Shown: positions 26,771 through 37,757 of the stretch, piece after piece
Layout of the letters: every line of letters begins with the position of its first letter
Position numbering within the stretch: position 1 is the stretch's first letter
Assembly: GCA_016744705.1 (NCBI GenBank)
Contig: JADGDU010000002.1
Location: 62,001 to 126,000, forward strand
Direction of reading: 5' to 3'
Source of the DNA: Candidatus Krumholzibacteriia bacterium
Lineage (GTDB): Bacteria > Krumholzibacteriota > Krumholzibacteriia > LZORAL124-64-63
Length of the DNA stretch: 64,000 nucleotides
Made by a program: the position numbers and the translations under genes
The notes under the pieces: generated by a model
Told to the model about the DNA's origin: nothing
Databases searched by the model: none
Seen by the model: only the letters and a program-made list of their open reading frames with translations

Positions 26771-28114
26771 ATGACTACTTTCCCGGGCATGAACACCCGT
26801 ACCAGCATATCTGAGATCTTCCGTTTTTGGCTGCCTTTGCAGACAACCTGGTTGATGATGGCCATTGAAGGCCCTTTGCTCACCGCCATCATCGCCCGGC
26901 TGGTAGAGCCCAAGCTCAACCTTGCCGCTTATGGTGTGGCCTACGCTTTGGCCATCATGGTGGAAGCTCCGGTGATCATGATGATGAGCGCCTCCACAGC
27001 TCTGGCCGATTCCGCTGAAAATTTCCGCCGGCTGCGAAATTTCACCTGGGTTTTGAACGTGGGCATCACCGTGGGCATGATGGCCCTTCTCTTTTCCCCT
27101 GCCTGGGATCTGGTGATCCACCAATGGATGCAGCTCGATCCTGAAGTGGCCTCCCTGACTCACACTTCCCTCATTATCCTTCTGCCCTGGCCAGCGGCCA
27201 TCGGTTTTCGCCGGTTCTATCAGGGGTTGCTGATCCGCACCGGGAACACTCGGAAGGTGGCCTGGGGCACCGGCATCCGGCTTACAGGTATGATGATCAC
27301 TGCTTTTGGGCTCATGAAATTCACCAATCTGCATGGTGCCTGGATTGGAGCCTCCGCTCTGACCACCGGCGTTTTAGTGGAAGCGGCTGCCAGCCGGATC
27401 ATGGCTTCCGCAAGCATTTCGGAAATTCTGGCATCTGAAGATAAAACCACCTTGAGCTATGGTGAAATCACCCGTTTTTATTACCCGCTGGCTCTGACCT
27501 CAACCATCTCCCTGATGGTCCATCCCATGGTCACCTTCTTTCTTGGCCAATCTCGCAACAGCTTGGAATCTCTGGCGGTGCTTCCCGTCATCAACGCCCT
27601 GGTGTTTGTCTTCCGCACTCCCGGGCTCAGCTTCCAGGAAGCGGCCATCACCATGCTCGCTCGTAGCAAGGACAACCTCGCTACCGTAAAACTCTTTGCA
27701 GTGTACCTGGGTGGAGCCGCGGCCGTGGGTCTGGGGCTGATTGCCCTCACCCCTCTGGCCGGTGTGTGGTTCCAGCGCATTTCCGGATTGAGCACAGAAC
27801 TCGCCATTTTTGCCCAATTGCCGGTTCGCATTTTGGTTATCATGCCCGCCCTCAGCGTCACACTTTCCATGCAACGCTCGCTGCTGGTTCACCGCCGCAC
27901 CACCGGGCCAGTGACTTGGGCGTCGGCCCTGGAAGTGACAGGTATTCTACTGACTTTGGTGGTCACCCTGAAGATGGGCAACTGGATCGGCGCAACAGCT
28001 GCGGCCACCGCCTTTATGGTGGGCCGGGGAATGGGCATACTCTGGTTATGGAAAACTCCCCGCCTTTTCAAGCAGGGAGTCTCCCCCAAATCATCGCCCA
28101 ATCATCAACGGTAG
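26771..28114 (+). CDS. MATE/MOP-superfamily transporter, ANKH-like
   Basis: A 447-residue protein with about twelve hydrophobic helices in two similar halves. LTAIIARLVEPKLNLAAYGVA, followed by an APVIMMM segment, and RRFYQGLLIRTGNTRKVAW in the loop between helices, match the multidrug/oligosaccharidyl-lipid/polysaccharide (MOP) superfamily. The first block most resembles the ANKH (progressive ankylosis) branch. Substrate unknown. No clear ribosome site precedes ATG 26771; ATG 26789 is an alternative. The 3' end overlaps by 10 bases the convergent secreted-protein gene. Confidence 0.75.
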   Translation: MTTFPGMNTRTSISEIFRFWLPLQTTWLMMAIEGPLLTAIIARLVEPKLNLAAYGVAYALAIMVEAPVIMMMSASTALADSAENFRRLRNFTWVLNVGITVGMMALLFSPAWDLVIHQWMQLDPEVASLTHTSLIILLPWPAAIGFRRFYQGLLIRTGNTRKVAWGTGIRLTGMMITAFGLMKFTNLHGAWIGASALTTGVLVEAAASRIMASASISEILASEDKTTLSYGEITRFYYPLALTSTISLMVHPMVTFFLGQSRNSLESLAVLPVINALVFVFRTPGLSFQEAAITMLARSKDNLATVKLFAVYLGGAAAVGLGLIALTPLAGVWFQRISGLSTELAIFAQLPVRILVIMPALSVTLSMQRSLLVHRRTTGPVTWASALEVTGILLTLVVTLKMGNWIGATAAATAFMVGRGMGILWLWKTPRLFKQGVSPKSSPNHQR

Positions 28115-29184
28115 TCTGCCTTCAGAGCATCCCAGGTCATGCTTTCAATCTGGACCATTCCATCCTGACCACAAACCTGCAATTCATACTCGATGGATGT
28201 CAGTTCAAGATTCCAATGGCCCACACCCTGGAGCGCAACAAAAATAAAGTATTCGTTGCCCGGGATTGTGGGGTAGTTGATTTCGCCAGAAACACAGGGA
28301 TCAACGTGAACACTAGACGAACCATATGCAGGACAACCAGCAGCATTAACGAAGAGACTGAAAGGAGCTTCCGCAATGATGGAGGCTTTGATTTCCGTTC
28401 CTGAAGCGATGACGGAGTACCAATCAGTATCCCGACTAAAATATGAATATGCGGGTCGTAAATATCCTGAAATACCCGCTATATTGAGACATCCCGTATC
28501 AGGCTGGAAAGAGTCAATATTCTGCAAAATGGGAGGATCTGCATTGCATCCTGTGTTGTATGTATCAACGTAATCATTGGCCAGCGGCGGCTCTCCCTCG
28601 GGCATCGCATCGGAAGAAAACGTCACATCGCAGGCTGGCATTTGTTGGACCTCAATGGTGTAAGTCCCTTGGGATCCATCGTATCCATCGATAATAATAA
28701 AGTAAGTATGGCCACTATAAACGGGCAATCCAGCCATACGGGCCGCAAGAAAGCCACACTCTGAAACACCATAATAAAACATTGGAACACATGCATAAGG
28801 GTCACCCGAGACATACTCATCTTCGTAAACAAAGAGCTGATTTCCAAAAGCCGATTCACACAAATCAATATCCAGTAGCATATCGGAAGTGGGAGTAAAA
28901 CTGTACACGACATCTGCTGCATTGTTGGGCCCGATCACACAGATATCGTTATAGTCGTTTTGGTACCCCACAGTGTTGCCAGAATCACTAAAAGGCAGCA
29001 TATCAATGGGGATAGCACTCTCGATGGTATCACCACCTAACCTGATACCATTTTCAATGGGAGTCATGGCTTGAGAGAAGTTGCTTTCAAAAGACGCAGG
29101 ACCTTTTGACCCCTCTTCCTGGTCAGAAGCAAAAGCAGAAAAAGCGAGCATAAAAAACAGAACAGTACAAATCAATCGTAACAT
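28105..29184 (-). CDS. Secreted Cys-rich protein with PPC-like beta domains
   Basis: A 359-residue exported protein with a signal peptide (residues 1-19). Two beta-rich repeats look like bacterial pre-peptidase C-terminal (PPC) domains: DVVYSFTPTSDMLLDIDLCES ... YFIIIDGYDGSQGTYTI, and DTDWYSVIASGTEIKASI ... EYFIFVALQG (features given as separated blocks). About twelve cysteines suggest disulphides in the mature form. No enzyme motif is seen. AAGGAAGG precedes the ATG at six bases. Probably a surface or secreted binding protein; the domain name is inferred from pattern only. Confidence 0.65.
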   Translation of the reverse strand: MLRLICTVLFFMLAFSAFASDQEEGSKGPASFESNFSQAMTPIENGIRLGGDTIESAIPIDMLPFSDSGNTVGYQNDYNDICVIGPNNAADVVYSFTPTSDMLLDIDLCESAFGNQLFVYEDEYVSGDPYACVPMFYYGVSECGFLAARMAGLPVYSGHTYFIIIDGYDGSQGTYTIEVQQMPACDVTFSSDAMPEGEPPLANDYVDTYNTGCNADPPILQNIDSFQPDTGCLNIAGISGYLRPAYSYFSRDTDWYSVIASGTEIKASIIAEAPFSLFVNAAGCPAYGSSSVHVDPCVSGEINYPTIPGNEYFIFVALQGVGHWNLELTSIEYELQVCGQDGMVQIESMTWDALKADYR

Positions 29185-29285: not shown

Positions 29286-31520
29286 TTAACCTTGCACAAC
29301 CCCGACAGTCGTCAAATTCACCACCCCCTGCACTGTTTCCCCATATTGAAGAATATGCACCGGCAACCTTGTGCCCATCAGCAATGGCCCTATGGGAATG
29401 GCCTCGCCCATGTGCTGCAACGACTGCATGGTCAGATTTCCTGATTGCAAATCAGGGAAAACCAAAACATTGGCATCGCCAGTGAGACTGGAGAATGGAA
29501 AGAATTCATGACGCAATCGGGAGTGGCGGGCCGTGGCCAATTGCATCTCCCCTTCGATTTCCAATTCCGGAGCCTGAGCCTTGACGATTTCCACCGCCCG
29601 TTGAACCTTCTGGGCGTAAGGATGGCTGGTGCTGCCAAAATTACTGAACGACAACATGGCCACTCTGGGTTGTACTCCCAGGGACCGGGCCGTGGTGGCG
29701 GCTTGCAGGGCAATTTCCGCCAGCTGTTGGGCCGTGGGATCAATGTTCACCGCACAGTCGGCCAGCAGAACAACTTCCTTGGGCATCAAAACCAAATGGT
29801 GGCTGGAAACCCGGCTCACTCCCTCTGCCGGTCCAATGATTTCCAACAAAGTCAGCAGCGTATCAGTGAAGTGGGTGGACGATCCGGCAATCATCATATC
29901 GGCGTGACCGCTGTGGACCATCATGGCCCCAAAACAATCCGGCTGCCTCATGCGGTCTCCCGCCAAAGCCCGGATCACACCGTGCCGCTGGCGCATCTGG
30001 AAATATTCTTCGCAATATTCCTCCAGATGAAGGCTGCGCAAGGGGTCGATGAATTTTGCACCGCCAAGGTCCAATCCTAGACTGTCAATTTTCTGCTGGA
30101 TTTCAGCTTCATTGCCCAACAAGATGGGCGAGGCAATGCCTTCATCCATGAGCTGGCTGCAAGCACGTAAAATGGTCTCATTGGTACCTTCGGTAAATAC
30201 CACCTGGCGCGGATCCTGGCGGGCGCGCATGAGCAATTCACGCATCTTTTCCCGACCCGTCCCCAACCGCACCGACAACCGGCCTTCATACTCTTGTCGG
30301 GCCAGGGGCTTATTGGCCACACCTTCGGCGATGGCCTGCTCAGCCACGGCCGCCGATTGCCGGACGAAGATCCGCGGGTCCAGCGGTTTGGGGAGCAAAT
30401 ATTCGGCACCAAAACTGAATCTCTGTCCGCCGTAGGCCCGCTCTACTTCTTCGGGAACATCTTCCCTGGCCAACTCAGCCAGAGAACGGGCAGCCGCCAG
30501 AAACATTCCTTCGGTGATGCTGGTAGCCTGCACATCCAAGGCCCCCCGGATGATGTAGGGAAAGCTTAACAAGTCCACGATGGCATTGGGGTGCATGTCC
30601 AGGGCCGTGGCCACGATGGCATCCTGGCGACTGGCTCTGGCCTCTTCGTAACTGATCTCAGGCTCCGGTGTGGCCATGGCAAAAATAATGGGAAAGCGCG
30701 CCATGGAGCGAATCATTTCCATATTCAGGATGCCACCGGAAGAGGCCCCCAGAAACACATCAGCCCCCACCAGACCATCGGCCAGATTTTCGAGAGGTGA
30801 GCTGCGCGCGAACACCTGTTGGTACTGATGCAGGTCCTGGCGATCCGTGTGAATTAAGCCATCGACATCATACATGAGTAAATTCTCAGGCAGCACACCT
30901 TGCTTCAATAACAACCGGGCACAACCGATGCCCACGGTGCCAGCTCCACAGATCACCACTCGCACTTCATCCATCTGTTTGTCCACCAACTCCAGGGCGT
31001 TGATCAGGGCCGCCAGAGCCACCACCGCTGTGCCATAAAGGTTCTCATGAAAGATGGGGATCTCGATGATTTCCCGCAGCCGGTCGTATATCTGCAAACC
31101 TTGAGGCGCTTGAATATCCTTAAGGTTCAAGGCTCCAAATGTGGGCTCCAAAAGGCGCATGGTTTCCACAAATCCATCCACATCAGTCTGGTTCAATTCC
31201 AAACCATAAACATCAATATCAGCCAGACGTTTCAAGAGGATGGCGATGCCTTCCTGCACTGGCTTAGCCGCCCGTGGGCCAACGTTTCCCATGCCCGGCA
31301 CAGCCGACCCATCGGTGACCACACCCACCAGGTTTCCTCGGGAAGTGTAGCGAAAAACTTCAGCCGGATCCTGGGCAATTTCTTCTGCCGGGAAGGTGGC
31401 CCCGGGCAAATAGGCCAACCGGATTTCCCGGGGCGTGATGCAGGATTTGGTGGCCGAAACCCCAATCTTCCCGGGGCGGCCTTTGCTATGATAATCCAGA
31501 GAATCCTGTTTCCTGATCAT
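29286..31520 (-). CDS. maeB: MaeB-like malic enzyme-phosphotransacetylase fusion with degenerate malic site
   Basis: A 744-residue protein with the full MaeB layout: malic enzyme N domain (1-160), NAD(P) Rossmann domain (CGAGTVGIGCA near 190) and a phosphotransacetylase-like C domain (about 415-744, SFSNFGST, GDANVLVFPDL, IGPLLMGTRLPVHIL). The family Tyr is kept (Tyr58), but key residues are not: the catalytic Lys of PVxEGK is Ile92, the metal ligand Glu of LEDI is Lys134, and HDDQHGTA reads HENLYGTA, losing the metal Asp (Asn160). Oxidative decarboxylation of malate therefore seems unlikely; a sensory or other carbon role is possible. Its ATG overlaps the dikinase stop by 4 bases (ATGA), so the two are translationally coupled. 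Confidence 0.9.
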   Translation of the reverse strand: MIRKQDSLDYHSKGRPGKIGVSATKSCITPREIRLAYLPGATFPAEEIAQDPAEVFRYTSRGNLVGVVTDGSAVPGMGNVGPRAAKPVQEGIAILLKRLADIDVYGLELNQTDVDGFVETMRLLEPTFGALNLKDIQAPQGLQIYDRLREIIEIPIFHENLYGTAVVALAALINALELVDKQMDEVRVVICGAGTVGIGCARLLLKQGVLPENLLMYDVDGLIHTDRQDLHQYQQVFARSSPLENLADGLVGADVFLGASSGGILNMEMIRSMARFPIIFAMATPEPEISYEEARASRQDAIVATALDMHPNAIVDLLSFPYIIRGALDVQATSITEGMFLAAARSLAELAREDVPEEVERAYGGQRFSFGAEYLLPKPLDPRIFVRQSAAVAEQAIAEGVANKPLARQEYEGRLSVRLGTGREKMRELLMRARQDPRQVVFTEGTNETILRACSQLMDEGIASPILLGNEAEIQQKIDSLGLDLGGAKFIDPLRSLHLEEYCEEYFQMRQRHGVIRALAGDRMRQPDCFGAMMVHSGHADMMIAGSSTHFTDTLLTLLEIIGPAEGVSRVSSHHLVLMPKEVVLLADCAVNIDPTAQQLAEIALQAATTARSLGVQPRVAMLSFSNFGSTSHPYAQKVQRAVEIVKAQAPELEIEGEMQLATARHSRLRHEFFPFSSLTGDANVLVFPDLQSGNLTMQSLQHMGEAIPIGPLLMGTRLPVHILQYGETVQGVVNLTTVGVVQG

Positions 31521-34500
31521 CCCGGCACCTCTGATTTAATGCAGAGCGGATAGTGCTCCACGGTTTTGCGCAATTCGGCGCGGAAAGTGGCGATAGGACG
31601 GGCCTGCAACAACCACAGGCGGTCGCCCTCTATGGTAAATTCAATATCCAGAGGATAACCGTAACCGTTTTCCAAAGCGCTGGCTTTGGTTACGATTTCA
31701 CACAATTCAAAATATTCAAGGGCCGGACGCAAGCGCTGGTGGTAGAGAGTTTCTTCCAGGCGGGTGCCCCAACCACGGCGTTGGTCATAGACCATTTGAG
31801 TGGGTTTGTCGTTGGTCAGGTAGTTCAGATGGGTGGGGTCTTCGCCTGCCTTGAAATCTTTCACCACAGTGACCAGATCTGCTGCCACCAGACCCGAGAC
31901 AATCCCCTCGCCAAGGCCCAGACTCACATTGATCAATAATTCCCGCAGATCACCCCGGGCCACATTCACCGTCTGCAAAACACCAGACACCCGGGAGTGA
32001 ACCATGCGCTGCACCACGACCCCACCCGAGGGCATAGCCATGGTGGTTCCCGCCGCTTCCCGTGAGTACAGAGCGCGTTCGGTCCATAACCCGCTCCAGG
32101 TCAACCGCAGATACTTCAGCAAAGACTCCACTCCCTTCACAAAGAGGAAGCTTTCAAACTCACCGGCTCGCATCACCGTTTCTGTATCTTCGTCACAGGA
32201 TGAGGAACGCAAGGCCACAAAGTCATCACCATCGACGAGCTGGGCATGGGCTGTTTTCACACTTTTCAGCAACTCGTTCGGCAGTTTTGTTTCCAACCAT
32301 AACCTGCTGATAGCCGCAGACTTGGCCCCATTGTCTAGGCTTTCCCGTCCCAAGACATACTGAATAGCCTCTTCCAGAGTTCGCGCCCCGGCTCCCAGAT
32401 ATTCAGCCGAACCCACAGGTTCTTTCAGCATCTGAGCGAAGGCCACATTGGTAACCACAAACCACGGCGGCACTGTTTCTGCCCCTGCCAGGCGATCCAT
32501 TTCCGCCAGGTTGGCCGCCTTCCACCCAATGAGAGGATTCGACTCCAGTCCACACTGGTTTGCCTTCAATACATTTTCCATTTTGGTGGCATTCAAAGAA
32601 TGGGCATCCATTTGGGCCAAAAACTCCTGGCTTTCAATGAGCAATTCCGGTCGGGGGGTGGCTGTCCCCAAAACGGTCCCGATGCGTCCAATGCGGCGCA
32701 GCAGATGCCGGATGGCCGCTCCCTTAGTTGATAGATTTTCTGATAATTTCAACAGCAAATCAGTGCGCAAGTCTTCCAACCGATGCCGGGCCCGATCACT
32801 GACCTCTGCGGGGTCCGGACATGCAGGCAATTCTTCATTCAGTCCAAACTGCTGCAATAACATCACAGAATCGGTCATGGCCAGCCGCCAATGCATGGCG
32901 CGCAGTCGCCAACCCAGCACTTCGTAGAGGAAAGTAGAGGTGGGAATTTGTTGCATGGCCGCGCGCTCAGCTGTGGCGCAACAATCGGCCACGTGGTGGC
33001 AGATTTCATAGAGTTTTGACCTTGCCGACTCAGCAACTTTATCATTGGCCAGGATTCTCAACAGCAATCTTTTTTTGTCTGTGTTGAGAACTTTTTCCAT
33101 GGTTTCGCCGATGACAAGTTCTTCTACGGCGAAGGCAGTCAGGGATGGGTCGGTGAGCCGATCCACGATCTTTTGGATCTGATGACGGGCTCGCAGTTGT
33201 TGGGCCCGAATCTCCAGAACGGCCGAATCATCCACCACATGATCCGCCCTGGCACAGGCCTCTCCCAGCAGGCGCAAACCATCCCAGAGAGCCAAGGTAT
33301 CGCGGTCCTGCCCAATGATCTGGGCCAGACTTTCATCTGCGTCGAGGATGACCAGATCATTCTCCAACAGCTCTTCGGCGTGCCGGCGAACAACTTCTCT
33401 TTCGCACACGATGAAGTCACCAACTTGGTGTTCCTGCTCACGGTATTCCGGAACCATAAACCGCAGGGCAGGCTCGCTGCCCGTATCGTCCCATCCCGCT
33501 TCCGCCACCATGGCTGGCTTGCCAAATTGGATGGCCAACAGGGCCGCGTGGCTGAGCACTGCACCCCCTGTGGAAAGGATGCCAGCACAACGGCATAGAA
33601 ATTGGTTATCCGTGGGACACACTTTGCGAGCCACCAGGATGGCACCTACCAAATCCTGGGGCTGGCGGCCTTCGGTTCCAAAAAGAACCCGGCCCACCGC
33701 GCGACCCGGCGCGGCTTTCAGGCCTTTGAGTACTCGATCTTCCCCTTTGATCCGGCGATCCTCCGCTGGACGGTCCAACTGGGCCTGGGCCCTCAATTCC
33801 GCCAGATCAAGATTCTGATCGCAGGTTTTTAAGGTCATCACTCCCGCCAAATAGTTGGCGCTGAGCATGAGTTCCCAAAGGTGATGAGCATCCAGATTGG
33901 CGTTGGATTGCCAAGGATCTGTTTCAGCACAGCGGTAGCGCATCAAACGGGATTCCTGGCAATAAGCACCCAAACGAATCACACCATGCGCATCCCGAAC
34001 CACAAAGATACTGAGATCCCCTCCCAGAACGGTGACGGTGGATTTTTCCACCACCAAGCCCCCTACAAAACCCGTGGGTGTGAATTCCACGAAGCGTTCC
34101 AATTCCGCCAAGGGACGGGAAAGTCCGCAGGATTCGGCGGCAGCATTGCCACCCTCCACCAGGAGCAGTGCAAAAAATTCTGCTTCGTGAACGATTTGAA
34201 ACACATCTGGAGAGGCCGTTTCGAAATCTGTTTCTCCAGGGAATATCCGCCCCACTTTCAAGGCCTCAGTCACCGGCTTCATAACAACTTTTTCCACCTC
34301 CAGAAGAGGCAGCAACCCTTGCCTGGCTTCTTCCTGCAAGGCAGGAATCTGGAGTGACAAATCAGCCAGAACCGATGTCAATTGATTCAGAAAATCATCC
34401 GGTGGTTTGCTGCTGAAACAATCTCTGCAAGCACCCTCGCCATCCCAAAGAAGCTCCTGCACCCCAGTGGGCCCGTGGGCCTTTTCCACCAACACCCCGG

Positions 34501-36529
34501 TACGCTTTGCATTGAGAATAGTCCCCATGGGCAACACACCACTGCGGCGGAAACGGTCGGCCCAATGCTCGGCAACTTTCTGTCTGGCTTCATCTGACAA
34601 CTGGAGAGAACCGATGACCCAATCCACTTCCATCAGATAAGGGGCCATGCGCAACAAAGCCGACACATGATCGCACAGATCACCCAGGGAGAAGCTGCGT
34701 TCCTTGTCGTAGCGTACAAACAAACGCATGCCTTCCATGCGCACGTCAAAATCCAGGGTGCGGAACATCAAACGAATGGCGTCCAATGCGGAGTTAGGGT
34801 GCAACTCAATTTCATAATTGGAGACTCCGTAATACTCCAGATCCATCATGCCCCCGCGTTGGGGAGGTGAATAATCCACCCGCAAAAAGGCAGGGTGGTT
34901 GCGGAAGGCCAGGTAGTAGTGCACCTCATTTCCAAAGATAAAGACATCCACAGAGGGAAATGCTTCCGTTCCAAAAAGCATCTGTCGGGACAGACTATCG
35001 GCCACAATGCGCACTGGAAAAGGCAATAAATCCGGCATCGTATTTTCAATGCCAGCTTCAAACTCTGCATACCGAATGGTTTTGCAGACCACTTTTGATT
35101 CGTCAGGCTTCACCAGAATCAAGTCCACTGTCCGGTTGGGGGCGTGGGTTGTATCCACCATTTTAAACCCCAGCTTCAGGCCCTTCTGGTGCAAATACCG
35201 CTTGAGGCCGTGGACGCTCCGCACTTCCCCCAGGTTACTCGGATCTTCAAAAGCCAGGACCAGGCGAGTCAGTTCCGCCGACAGAGGGCCCGTCTCTGGT
35301 TCGTCTGCCAGGGCTGTGATCGATCGGCCGCGCAGATCTTCCCACAACTGAGGTAAAATGGCGCAATCATCAGACAAATCCACAAACAGGGAAGCGTAAG
35401 TTTCCACCACGGAATCAAGATGAAAGATGATCCGCTCCACCTTGGCTTTATCCAAGGGGGCCACATCCAAAATTTCCCCCAACAATTCTGCATGAGTGAT
35501 ATTCAAGACGCGGAATCGATCCACGGGGTCGCTTTTTTCGCGGTGGCTTCCAGGTTTTTGTGCAGATCCACCGTGCGTGGTGATTAAGTGAAAACTGCGC
35601 CCAATGCTGGCTTCCGTTTGGGAAAAGAGAAGGACTTCACTTTCGCGGACAATCAAGGGAAGCGTTCCTGGTAAAACAATCTCCACAAAGTGCTCGATGC
35701 GGAGCCCCAGACTCACATGGGCCCAGCCCACAGTGGCCACCGCTTCTCTGACCAGAATTTCACCGTGTGTTTTTATGGCTGTGCGGAACAGAGCCAACAC
35801 CCGGGCCGGCAGACGTTTCCCCTCACTCAAATCATACAGGTCCTGGTGGGTGGCTCGTGTGAAATTGAGGTAGGGGCCGAGCACTTCGAAGGCCTTGGCC
35901 CCCAGAATGAGTTGGGAATTTTCCGGTGGAGCGGGAGCGCCCTCTTTGTCCAATAAGGTCGCTGCCAGTTTTCGGGTATGATGATCAGGATCTTTACGCA
36001 GAAGTGTGAGCAGTCCATCACCACCAGAGGTTCCATGATGACGTTCCACAGTGCCGATGAGCAGCTCTAACAGATCTTCGTCTTCAAAGGGACTGAATTC
36101 CAGATCCATCAACCGCGCGTATTCCCGCAACAAAGGCCTATTCAACGGGATCGTTTTTTTGTTGACCAACTCCAACGTCAGGCCAGTGGCCAACTGGGCC
36201 ACGCCTTCGTCCGCCGCTTGTAACAAGGCCTTCAACAAGGGCCACGGCCGGTCCATCTTCACTGCCAGATCAGCCAGCATTTCATAAACAGGCAACGCGA
36301 TAAAATCGTCTGTGACGGCCAACAACCGGGCCAGCTGCCGGATATGTTTCCATTGGGAGGGGCGTGGCGGGTGGGATAAAAGGGCGATGATTCGGTCGCA
36401 GTCCAGGCGCACTTCATCGTCGTCTCCACAGACCATGGCCAATTGCTCGCTGATAGAAGCGACAAGCTGAGCAAGAGTGGGTGTTGCAGAGACTTGGGCC
36501 AAGGATATATCCGATGCGGCCGAAGACAA
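31517..36529 (-). CDS. Giant dikinase (PEP synthase/glucan water dikinase-like) with phosphohistidine then ATP-grasp order
   Basis: A 1670-residue cytoplasmic protein. Residues about 1-220 are helical and HEAT-like; 220-900 are unassigned. The phosphohistidine domain has His994 in GGAVLSHAALLA. A helical stretch follows, then a C-terminal ATP-grasp domain (about 1330-1655): NPLIGWKAANLAEM, VALRSSSCDEDTE, TWSGLWTERALYSR, GGVVVQRMVHSRVSGVLQ, SLGLGEGIVSG and DRLWLLQARPI. In PEP synthase and PPDK the ATP-grasp comes first; this order is that of plant glucan water dikinases, as is the VLSH spelling. No PEP/pyruvate TIM barrel is present, so the acceptor is unknown. The start at TTG 36529 lacks a ribosome site; ATG 36436 is possible. 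Coupled to the MaeB-like gene. Confidence 0.82.
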   Translation of the reverse strand: MSSAASDISLAQVSATPTLAQLVASISEQLAMVCGDDDEVRLDCDRIIALLSHPPRPSQWKHIRQLARLLAVTDDFIALPVYEMLADLAVKMDRPWPLLKALLQAADEGVAQLATGLTLELVNKKTIPLNRPLLREYARLMDLEFSPFEDEDLLELLIGTVERHHGTSGGDGLLTLLRKDPDHHTRKLAATLLDKEGAPAPPENSQLILGAKAFEVLGPYLNFTRATHQDLYDLSEGKRLPARVLALFRTAIKTHGEILVREAVATVGWAHVSLGLRIEHFVEIVLPGTLPLIVRESEVLLFSQTEASIGRSFHLITTHGGSAQKPGSHREKSDPVDRFRVLNITHAELLGEILDVAPLDKAKVERIIFHLDSVVETYASLFVDLSDDCAILPQLWEDLRGRSITALADEPETGPLSAELTRLVLAFEDPSNLGEVRSVHGLKRYLHQKGLKLGFKMVDTTHAPNRTVDLILVKPDESKVVCKTIRYAEFEAGIENTMPDLLPFPVRIVADSLSRQMLFGTEAFPSVDVFIFGNEVHYYLAFRNHPAFLRVDYSPPQRGGMMDLEYYGVSNYEIELHPNSALDAIRLMFRTLDFDVRMEGMRLFVRYDKERSFSLGDLCDHVSALLRMAPYLMEVDWVIGSLQLSDEARQKVAEHWADRFRRSGVLPMGTILNAKRTGVLVEKAHGPTGVQELLWDGEGACRDCFSSKPPDDFLNQLTSVLADLSLQIPALQEEARQGLLPLLEVEKVVMKPVTEALKVGRIFPGETDFETASPDVFQIVHEAEFFALLLVEGGNAAAESCGLSRPLAELERFVEFTPTGFVGGLVVEKSTVTVLGGDLSIFVVRDAHGVIRLGAYCQESRLMRYRCAETDPWQSNANLDAHHLWELMLSANYLAGVMTLKTCDQNLDLAELRAQAQLDRPAEDRRIKGEDRVLKGLKAAPGRAVGRVLFGTEGRQPQDLVGAILVARKVCPTDNQFLCRCAGILSTGGAVLSHAALLAIQFGKPAMVAEAGWDDTGSEPALRFMVPEYREQEHQVGDFIVCEREVVRRHAEELLENDLVILDADESLAQIIGQDRDTLALWDGLRLLGEACARADHVVDDSAVLEIRAQQLRARHQIQKIVDRLTDPSLTAFAVEELVIGETMEKVLNTDKKRLLLRILANDKVAESARSKLYEICHHVADCCATAERAAMQQIPTSTFLYEVLGWRLRAMHWRLAMTDSVMLLQQFGLNEELPACPDPAEVSDRARHRLEDLRTDLLLKLSENLSTKGAAIRHLLRRIGRIGTVLGTATPRPELLIESQEFLAQMDAHSLNATKMENVLKANQCGLESNPLIGWKAANLAEMDRLAGAETVPPWFVVTNVAFAQMLKEPVGSAEYLGAGARTLEEAIQYVLGRESLDNGAKSAAISRLWLETKLPNELLKSVKTAHAQLVDGDDFVALRSSSCDEDTETVMRAGEFESFLFVKGVESLLKYLRLTWSGLWTERALYSREAAGTTMAMPSGGVVVQRMVHSRVSGVLQTVNVARGDLRELLINVSLGLGEGIVSGLVAADLVTVVKDFKAGEDPTHLNYLTNDKPTQMVYDQRRGWGTRLEETLYHQRLRPALEYFELCEIVTKASALENGYGYPLDIEFTIEGDRLWLLQARPIATFRAELRKTVEHYPLCIKSEVPG

Positions 36530-36704
36530 AACGGGAATGACTACGCAATGTCAATTATTTAACATCCTGCCCTGTTTGTCCAGTGAAACCTGATGGGCAA
36601 CAAGGGGTAACGAATATTCAAATTCGTTGTATACTGTTGTCAATATTCCCCTTCTTGGTCAAAAGCAGAAAGTTTGTCATAAAGTGACTACGGATAAGAC
36701 CCCA
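36530..36704. promoter_or_regulatory. Divergent promoter region between dikinase and NtrB-like kinase
   Basis: TATACT at 36630-36635 is a good -10 box for the rightward kinase gene, though its -35 is poor. A TTGACA (minus strand, 36554-36549) points towards the dikinase, but without a convincing -10. If the TATACT box is used, the kinase cannot start at the in-frame TTG 36627, which supports the ATG at 36705. Confidence 0.4.
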
Positions 36705-37757
36705 ATGATATTTTTGAGAACATACGGATTGATCATTCTCCTGGTCATCCTCATAACCTTTCTGCATTACACTCATGAATCTCACCTGCATGAACTGCAC
36801 GGAGTTTACAAACTCTTCTTTTTCCTGCCGATCATTCTGGGTGGATTTCGCGGCGGCAAAGCCGGGGGCCTTTTGGTAAGTCTGGCTGTGGGTGTGGCTT
36901 TTTATCCCCATGCCTTCATATCATCCTGTAGTTCCTGTGGATCCACTGTGGACAAAATTATCGAGATGGCTCTTTACCTGGGAGTGGGACTTCTGACCGG
37001 CACCCTGAGCGACCATCTCCTCCATGCCCGCAATGACCTGCAACACACCCTGACAGAAAAATCAGCCATGGAGGCTGAATTGATGCGCTCCACCAGGCTG
37101 GCGGCCGTGGGCCAACTGTCGGCGGGTCTGGCTCATGAAATTCGTAATCCTCTGGCCAGCATTCAAGGCTCGGCCGAAGTTTTGGCCGATGACTTTGATC
37201 CCCAACACCCCAAGGGCCGCATGCTCACCATTCTCATGGATGAAGCCCGGCGACTGAATGCTGTGCTCACCCGTTTTCTGGAATTTGCAAGGGTTGAACC
37301 CGGGGAAAGAGAATCCTTTGATTTGCAAAAAGAAGCCCACGCCGTGGCGGACATGATTCGGCATCATCCTGAATTCAGTTCGGTTGTTTGTAACGTTAGG
37401 GCCGAAGCTCACCCTCACCGCGCCATAGGCAACCGGGAACAAATCCGGCAGGTTCTCTTAAACCTGGCCCTGAATGGAGCCATGGCCAGTGGCCCTGAGG
37501 GAAAAATCACATTTAGCCTGCAAAACCGGGCCAACCAATGCTGGTGTGAAGTCATAGACACCGGGTCAGGATTCACCTCCGAAGCCAGACAACAGTTCGG
37601 CACACCTTTTTTCAGCACCAAAACTCAGGGCACAGGCCTGGGTCTGGCCACAAGCCTGAAAATTGTTCAGGATCAGAGTGGAACCCTGGAGCCTGGAAGT
37701 TCTGCCCTGGGTGGCGGTAAGGTCACCCTCAAACTGCCTCTGGCCCCCGCGGAATAA
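36705..37757 (+). CDS. NtrB-like membrane sensor histidine kinase
   Basis: A 350-residue kinase from ATG 36705. Three to four N-terminal hydrophobic helices (about residues 5-105) form a DUF4118-like membrane part, with a Cys/Ser-rich loop SSCSSCGST. A linker follows, then HisKA with His144 in AGLAHEIRNPLASIQG, and the ATPase domain with DTGSGF, GTGLGLATS; the N box reads LNLALNGAMA. The frame could extend to a TTG at 36627, but a -10 box lies there. No receiver or regulator is adjacent, so this is an orphan kinase. The Cys loop could sense metal or redox; this is a guess. Confidence 0.85.
   Translation: MIFLRTYGLIILLVILITFLHYTHESHLHELHGVYKLFFFLPIILGGFRGGKAGGLLVSLAVGVAFYPHAFISSCSSCGSTVDKIIEMALYLGVGLLTGTLSDHLLHARNDLQHTLTEKSAMEAELMRSTRLAAVGQLSAGLAHEIRNPLASIQGSAEVLADDFDPQHPKGRMLTILMDEARRLNAVLTRFLEFARVEPGERESFDLQKEAHAVADMIRHHPEFSSVVCNVRAEAHPHRAIGNREQIRQVLLNLALNGAMASGPEGKITFSLQNRANQCWCEVIDTGSGFTSEARQQFGTPFFSTKTQGTGLGLATSLKIVQDQSGTLEPGSSALGGGKVTLKLPLAPAE

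Follow-up and report, generated by a model that had tools for sequence, protein, structure and literature searches.

A giant dikinase with reversed domain order and its constant gene neighbour, a MaeB-like protein with a remodelled malic-enzyme site

The DNA analysed, hereafter the window, is a stretch of 64,000 nucleotides that carries on its reverse strand the two genes described here, and all the coordinates given for features within them refer to that strand. The upstream gene (31517..36529) is an open reading frame for a giant dikinase of 1670 amino acids, recognized by its Pfam domains and by 46 relatives, and it starts with a TTG codon that aligns with the ATG of a relative (L009/L067) of 80% identity. 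The downstream gene (29286..31520) encodes a MaeB-like protein of 744 amino acids, referred to as the partner, with malic-enzyme-like and phosphotransacetylase (PTA)-like domains (Pfam malic, Malic_M and PTA_PTB). The stop codon of the dikinase gene and the start codon of the partner gene share an ATGA sequence (31517..31520), and from this arrangement translational coupling of both genes is likely; the same overlap of 4 nt is present in about half of the relatives and is the most frequent spacing among them. A promoter and terminator scan detected promoter-like sites in no excess over shuffled sequences. Divergent from the dikinase gene, and separated from it by 97 nt, there is a gene on the forward strand (36627-37757) for a sensor kinase with DUF4118-like, HisKA and HATPase domains, a neighbour that is not conserved in other phyla, and around 100 nt downstream of the partner gene a reverse-strand gene (28105-29184) encodes a protein of 359 amino acids that apparently has a signal sequence and is matched by no Pfam family.

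The domain content of the dikinase was studied with Pfam. The mobile, His-carrying domain (PEP-utilizers) was found at residues 962-1063 (E 4.7e-8) and the ATP-grasp domain (PPDK_N) downstream of it, at residues 1332-1653 (E 1.1e-52), in agreement with the order proposed in the initial annotation, and both domains were matched in the 42 family members scanned over the dikinase half. The PEP/pyruvate TIM barrel (PEP-utilizers_C, PF02896), also reported as absent in that annotation, was detected in none of these 42 proteins, and the same library matched it strongly in the controls, E. coli PpsA and the PPDK encoded by the same genome. The protein belongs to the PEP synthase/PPDK/RPH superfamily, with an order of N-terminal domains, swivel His domain, helical region and ATP-grasp. 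The catalytic His994 (codon at 33548..33550) is a His in each of the 42 members that cover this position, and K1337, R1441, D1628 and E1630 are likewise unsubstituted in every member covering them. An additional residue had been proposed between the Gly pair and the His, and the alignment contradicts it: most members show the consensus S-T-G-G-G-[IV]-L-S-H with the normal G-G-x-x-x-H spacing, and in the protein from the window the last Gly is replaced by Ala, without any insertion.

The structure of these domains was examined with two AlphaFold2 models that jointly span residues 1-1664, and with structural alignments (VIA-align). In the model of residues 471-1664 (pLDDT 86.3), a swivel or phosphohistidine carrier domain with a beta-hairpin insertion (residues 926-1078; 33296..33754), which aligns to the phosphoryl carrier domain of PPDK (2fm4, Z 11.7), is followed by a region of long helices (residues 1079-1315; 32585..33295) and by the C-terminal ATP-grasp (residues 1316-1664; 31538..32584), in such an arrangement that about 340 residues separate His994 from the start of the ATP-grasp. 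This last domain aligns to those of PpsA (2ols, Z 35.3), RPH (5hv1, Z 34.5) and HpeI (9goj, Z 28.9), and its nearest Foldseek matches were HpeI (E 5.8e-16) and RPH. A hidden TIM barrel was also considered and rejected, as no member matches PEP-utilizers_C and the models consist of helical repeats, mixed alpha/beta parts and long helices, with no TIM-barrel-type run of alternating strands and helices.

The 925 residues preceding the swivel domain have no match in Pfam or among PDB sequences, where a profile of this part found chance-level matches only, so that the roughly 900 N-terminal residues described initially as unassigned stay without assignment. Foldseek searches with the same residues returned no structure at E <= 0.001 from the PDB or from viral models, and no homologue of this N-terminus lacking the dikinase was found at E 0.001 among 297 genomes. 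The AlphaFold2 model of residues 1-925, built from 39 sequences (mean pLDDT 85.8, pTM 0.82), shows an all-helical, HEAT/ARM-like repeat region at residues ~17-267 (35729..36481) followed by mixed alpha/beta parts. The helical region aligns to helical-repeat proteins with a best Z of 9.5 over 142 residues, a range that is common for helical repeats, and HEAT_2 was matched in three of 39 members (best E 0.005). Further on, a conserved alpha/beta core (residues 420-700; 34430..35272) carries the motifs HGLKRYLHQ, RNHPAFLRIDYSPPLRGGMIDLEY and RYDKER and accounts for 35 of the 36 columns that are invariant in the N-terminal alignment, and because of this concentration of invariant positions the second substrate would most plausibly be bound there, making the core a candidate acceptor domain. 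No convincing fold match for the core was found in the PDB, the VIA-align rows covering mainly the helical repeats; a weak Foldseek match to 2plg (prob 0.69 and 0.91), whose placement at around residues 500-640 was guessed from the order of strands and helices, is a lead only. The last residues before the swivel domain (701-925; 33755..34429) form a mixed alpha/beta region according to the predicted secondary structure.

The distribution of the family was investigated by scanning 84,980 species genomes with an eight-member alignment. Of the 48 loci detected, 46 are full or partial members of the family and two (L083 and L084) encode ordinary RPH-like dikinases. The 46 relatives of the dikinase, which form an unnamed family, span at least eight phyla, with record titles that include Krumholzibacteriia, Gemmatimonadetes, Calditrichaceae, Bacteroidota/Ignavibacteria, Desulfobacteraceae/Syntrophobacteraceae, Anaeromyxobacter, several classes of Acidobacteria, Eisenbacteria and Planctomycetota. 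As all the member genomes are MAGs, a single phylum label could be due to faulty binning, whereas adjacency on the same contig cannot. A search of plasmid records found no place with 80% coverage of the query; the top ones were ATP-grasp matches of the PpsA type. In two relatives (L050 and L077) the dikinase gene is broken near residue 400 and the partner gene is intact; gene fission was considered here, but the breaks correspond to a frameshift (L050, about 2060-2200) and to an in-frame TAA (L077, 7160-7230), and are hence read as lesions or assembly errors. The genome of the window encodes in addition, outside it, two PPDK_N proteins of 917 and 1111 amino acids (L001, 1-4152; L003, 1-4158) in which a central ATP-grasp is combined with a nucleotidyltransferase domain (NTP_transf_2) at the C-terminus; no His swivel was detected in them, and each adjoins another swivel-less PPDK_N protein (L005 and L006).

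A tree of ATP-grasp domains was built with 67 sequences, including 45 family rows and PpsA, PPDK and RPH sequences. The 45 family domains formed a single clade (support 99/96) apart from the PpsA, PPDK and RPH sequences tested, so a position inside PpsA/PPDK, which together with a hidden TIM barrel the initial annotation had named as the outcome that would overturn its proposal, was not found. The family shares with PpsA and PPDK the fold of the ATP-grasp, the swivel His domain and the catalytic residues, but in those enzymes the order is ATP-grasp, swivel and TIM barrel, whereas in the family it is reversed, the barrel is missing and around 900 extra residues stand at the N-terminus. RPH also has its ATP-grasp before the His domain. 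The homologous ATP-grasp, the absence of a TIM barrel and a two-component logic bring the family close to RPH and to HpeHI, CreHI and PpsAB, from which it differs in the C-terminal position of the ATP-grasp and in having a MaeB-like partner. In the VIA-align comparison with RPH the ATP-grasp alone was aligned, and within that alignment the RIF-binding domain found no counterpart.

The stronger finding concerns this next gene, which adjoins the coordinates given in the initial annotation. The MaeB-like gene lies directly downstream of the dikinase gene in the window and in all 45 relatives with downstream sequence. In the remaining one (L037) the contig ends before the partner; a second contig of that genome carries the partner next to the end of a dikinase gene. 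No other conserved neighbour was detected in the flanks of the relatives, and a larger conserved operon was discarded since the genes beyond the two-gene unit vary. Both genes co-occur in exactly the same 15 of 377 sampled genomes, a figure with no simple p-value as these genomes are related to each other. In the home phylum 10 of 80 genomes have the dikinase, and the partner (at least 61% identity) was present in precisely these, the next-best MaeB reaching at most 47%; in a second phylum both were found in the same five of 297 genomes, with a next-best MaeB of at most 50%. Four of the five genomes of this second phylum were newly fetched and adjacency was confirmed in them, as well as in one further genome from the phylum sample; the fifth belongs to the relative L049. 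Pairwise distances of partners and dikinases are correlated (r 0.85), with mean identities of 64% for the partners and 41% for the dikinases. A separate, ordinary MaeB is encoded in 15 of 18 further host genomes, in the 10 hosts from the home phylum and in the genome of the window itself. Literature searches returned no published description of such a pair.

The residues of the partner were compared with those of Bdellovibrio MaeB (6ZNG), to which it is similar in malic and PTA architecture over the full length with 36-48% identity. In the malic-enzyme-like half of the window protein (residues 1-400; 30321..31520), and using the Bdellovibrio numbering, K107 is replaced by I, E149 by K, D174 by E, and D175, a metal ligand in malic enzymes, by N. 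K107 is lost in all 46 partners, and the other replacements are almost as general, with E149K and D174E in 41, D175N in 42 and N300T in 39 of the 46; the set of K107, E149, D174 and D175 is complete in 22 of 22 ordinary MaeB proteins and in none of the partners, which form one clade. For the Bdellovibrio enzyme, the role of general acid/base is assigned to K107, held by D174, that of putative proton donor to E149 and that of tautomerisation to Y52, with N300 in contact with the nicotinamide (PMC7902834). As Y52, D150 and a GAGTVG motif of the NAD type are retained in the partner, this half may yet have some catalytic activity. Because the partners are better conserved than the dikinases and diverge in parallel with them, the altered site is under constraint, and the pattern of substitutions is read as uniform remodelling, not as decay. 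The most diverged partners (L055 and L066) show differing site patterns (YTQNLDL.. and YIRDDDF..), one of them having an Asp in each of positions 174 and 175, and they may represent a different function or an early branch.

The PTA-like half (29289..30242) keeps the equivalents of R535, N718 and P735 of the acetyl-CoA site. This domain is an acetyl-CoA sensor in MaeB, and mutation of R535 abolishes acetyl-CoA binding (PMC7902834). R535, the Arg of the 3'-loop, is kept in 42 of 43 partners and N718 in 39 of 43; other residues of the pocket are changed (T614 to A, Y721 to M or L, K722 to H or Q), for which reason the ligand could be another acyl-CoA or a CoA-like compound. The partner is best matched by models of NADP-malic enzyme (PRK12861.1 of NCBIfam, and Pfam), but that function is not supported by its residues, and the case is a residue-level warning for the annotation of malic enzymes.

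We propose, as a tentative reading to which we give somewhat less than an even chance, that the two genes form a module in which a MaeB-like protein without malic chemistry gates the dikinase by acetyl-CoA. The C-terminal ATP-grasp would phosphorylate His994 of the swivel with ATP, the dikinase half-reaction, as expected because the catalytic residues are fully conserved, and the swivel would then deliver its phosphoryl group to an acceptor bound in the conserved core. The partner would derive from a duplication of MaeB, with malic-enzyme chemistry lost and the acetyl-CoA sensor residues retained; it would most likely bind the dikinase, through the helical-repeat N-terminus or the core of the latter, and on sensing acetyl-CoA or a similar acyl-CoA it would gate the dikinase or present a substrate to it. 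Adjacency and coupling of the genes are no proof of a complex. The broader claim, that this is a new two-protein system in which a malic-enzyme pseudoenzyme acting as acetyl-CoA sensor controls a giant phosphohistidine dikinase of permuted domain order, equipped with a new acceptor domain, is held slightly more tentatively. Among the acceptors contemplated at first (a polysaccharide, a water/AMP-type reaction or a protein partner), the protein partner is the best fit, given the fixed partner gene, and the emphasis on glucan was misplaced.

The main rival, which we regard as rather unlikely, is a two-component metabolic enzyme with the MaeB-like protein as acceptor-binding subunit, where the phosphohistidine swivel would reach a metabolite (e.g., an enol or keto acid) in the remodelled malic pocket to give a new phosphorylated product. 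Dikinases with substrate binding and ATP-grasp on separate chains exist in HpeHI, PpsAB and CreHI (PMC12167813), and the uniformity across phyla of E149K, D174E, D175N and N300T suggests use over decay, with the retained GAGTVG motif also in favour; but the conserved core of the dikinase, with nearly all its N-terminal invariant columns, would need another role, and the metal and base residues of the malic site are absent. Less probable again, with the strict partner gene in its favour, would be a protein kinase of central metabolism that transfers its phosphohistidine group to the partner, to its MaeB paralogue or to another enzyme as a switch. Such a role has been proposed for VadK (Rv1127c) of M. 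tuberculosis, a precedent in which a PPDK derivative devoid of the pyruvate domain undergoes His autophosphorylation and associates with enzymes of the methylcitrate cycle (PMC13400623). However, VadK is a short, truncated PPDK with canonical domain order, lacking the 900-residue N-terminal part and any reported MaeB-like partner, and in the partner studied here no residue was recognised as an acceptor.

Two further readings are disfavoured. The pairing superficially resembles a malic enzyme with a PEP synthase, as in a channelled gluconeogenic pair that would convert malate to pyruvate and then, by a noncanonical PEP synthase, pyruvate to PEP; this is very improbable, as the catalytic Lys, the proton donor and one metal ligand are gone from the partner, the PEP/pyruvate barrel is missing from the dikinase, and the genome already has an ordinary PPDK and an ordinary MaeB. 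Hardly credible is a bacterial enzyme of the glucan-water-dikinase (GWD) type acting on glycogen or another polysaccharide. What stood of the likeness proposed initially is the His domain placed before a C-terminal ATP-grasp, as in plant GWD and PWD, together with the LSH motif at the catalytic His. But GWD1_pHisD (PF22973), although present in the Pfam library, was matched neither in the dikinase nor in 42 relatives at E values up to 1, a long helical insert separates the His from the ATP-grasp in the family, and the fixed partner, with no other conserved neighbour, is of the acyl-CoA-sensor type. None of 39 members has a carbohydrate-binding Pfam domain, such as the module of the plant enzymes, and a polysaccharide acceptor was rejected on this ground.

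The PEP-pyruvate-acetyl-CoA node is controlled by dikinases and malic enzymes, and the dikinase and the MaeB-like protein together probably constitute an unrecognised metabolic switch or enzyme. The strict inheritance of a permuted dikinase with a disabled MaeB in many phyla hints at a regulatory or enzymatic step that annotation has not named, and if the proposal is true, many uncultured bacteria would have in this pair an ATP-driven switch, or a new step of phosphorylation, at their pyruvate/acetyl-CoA node.
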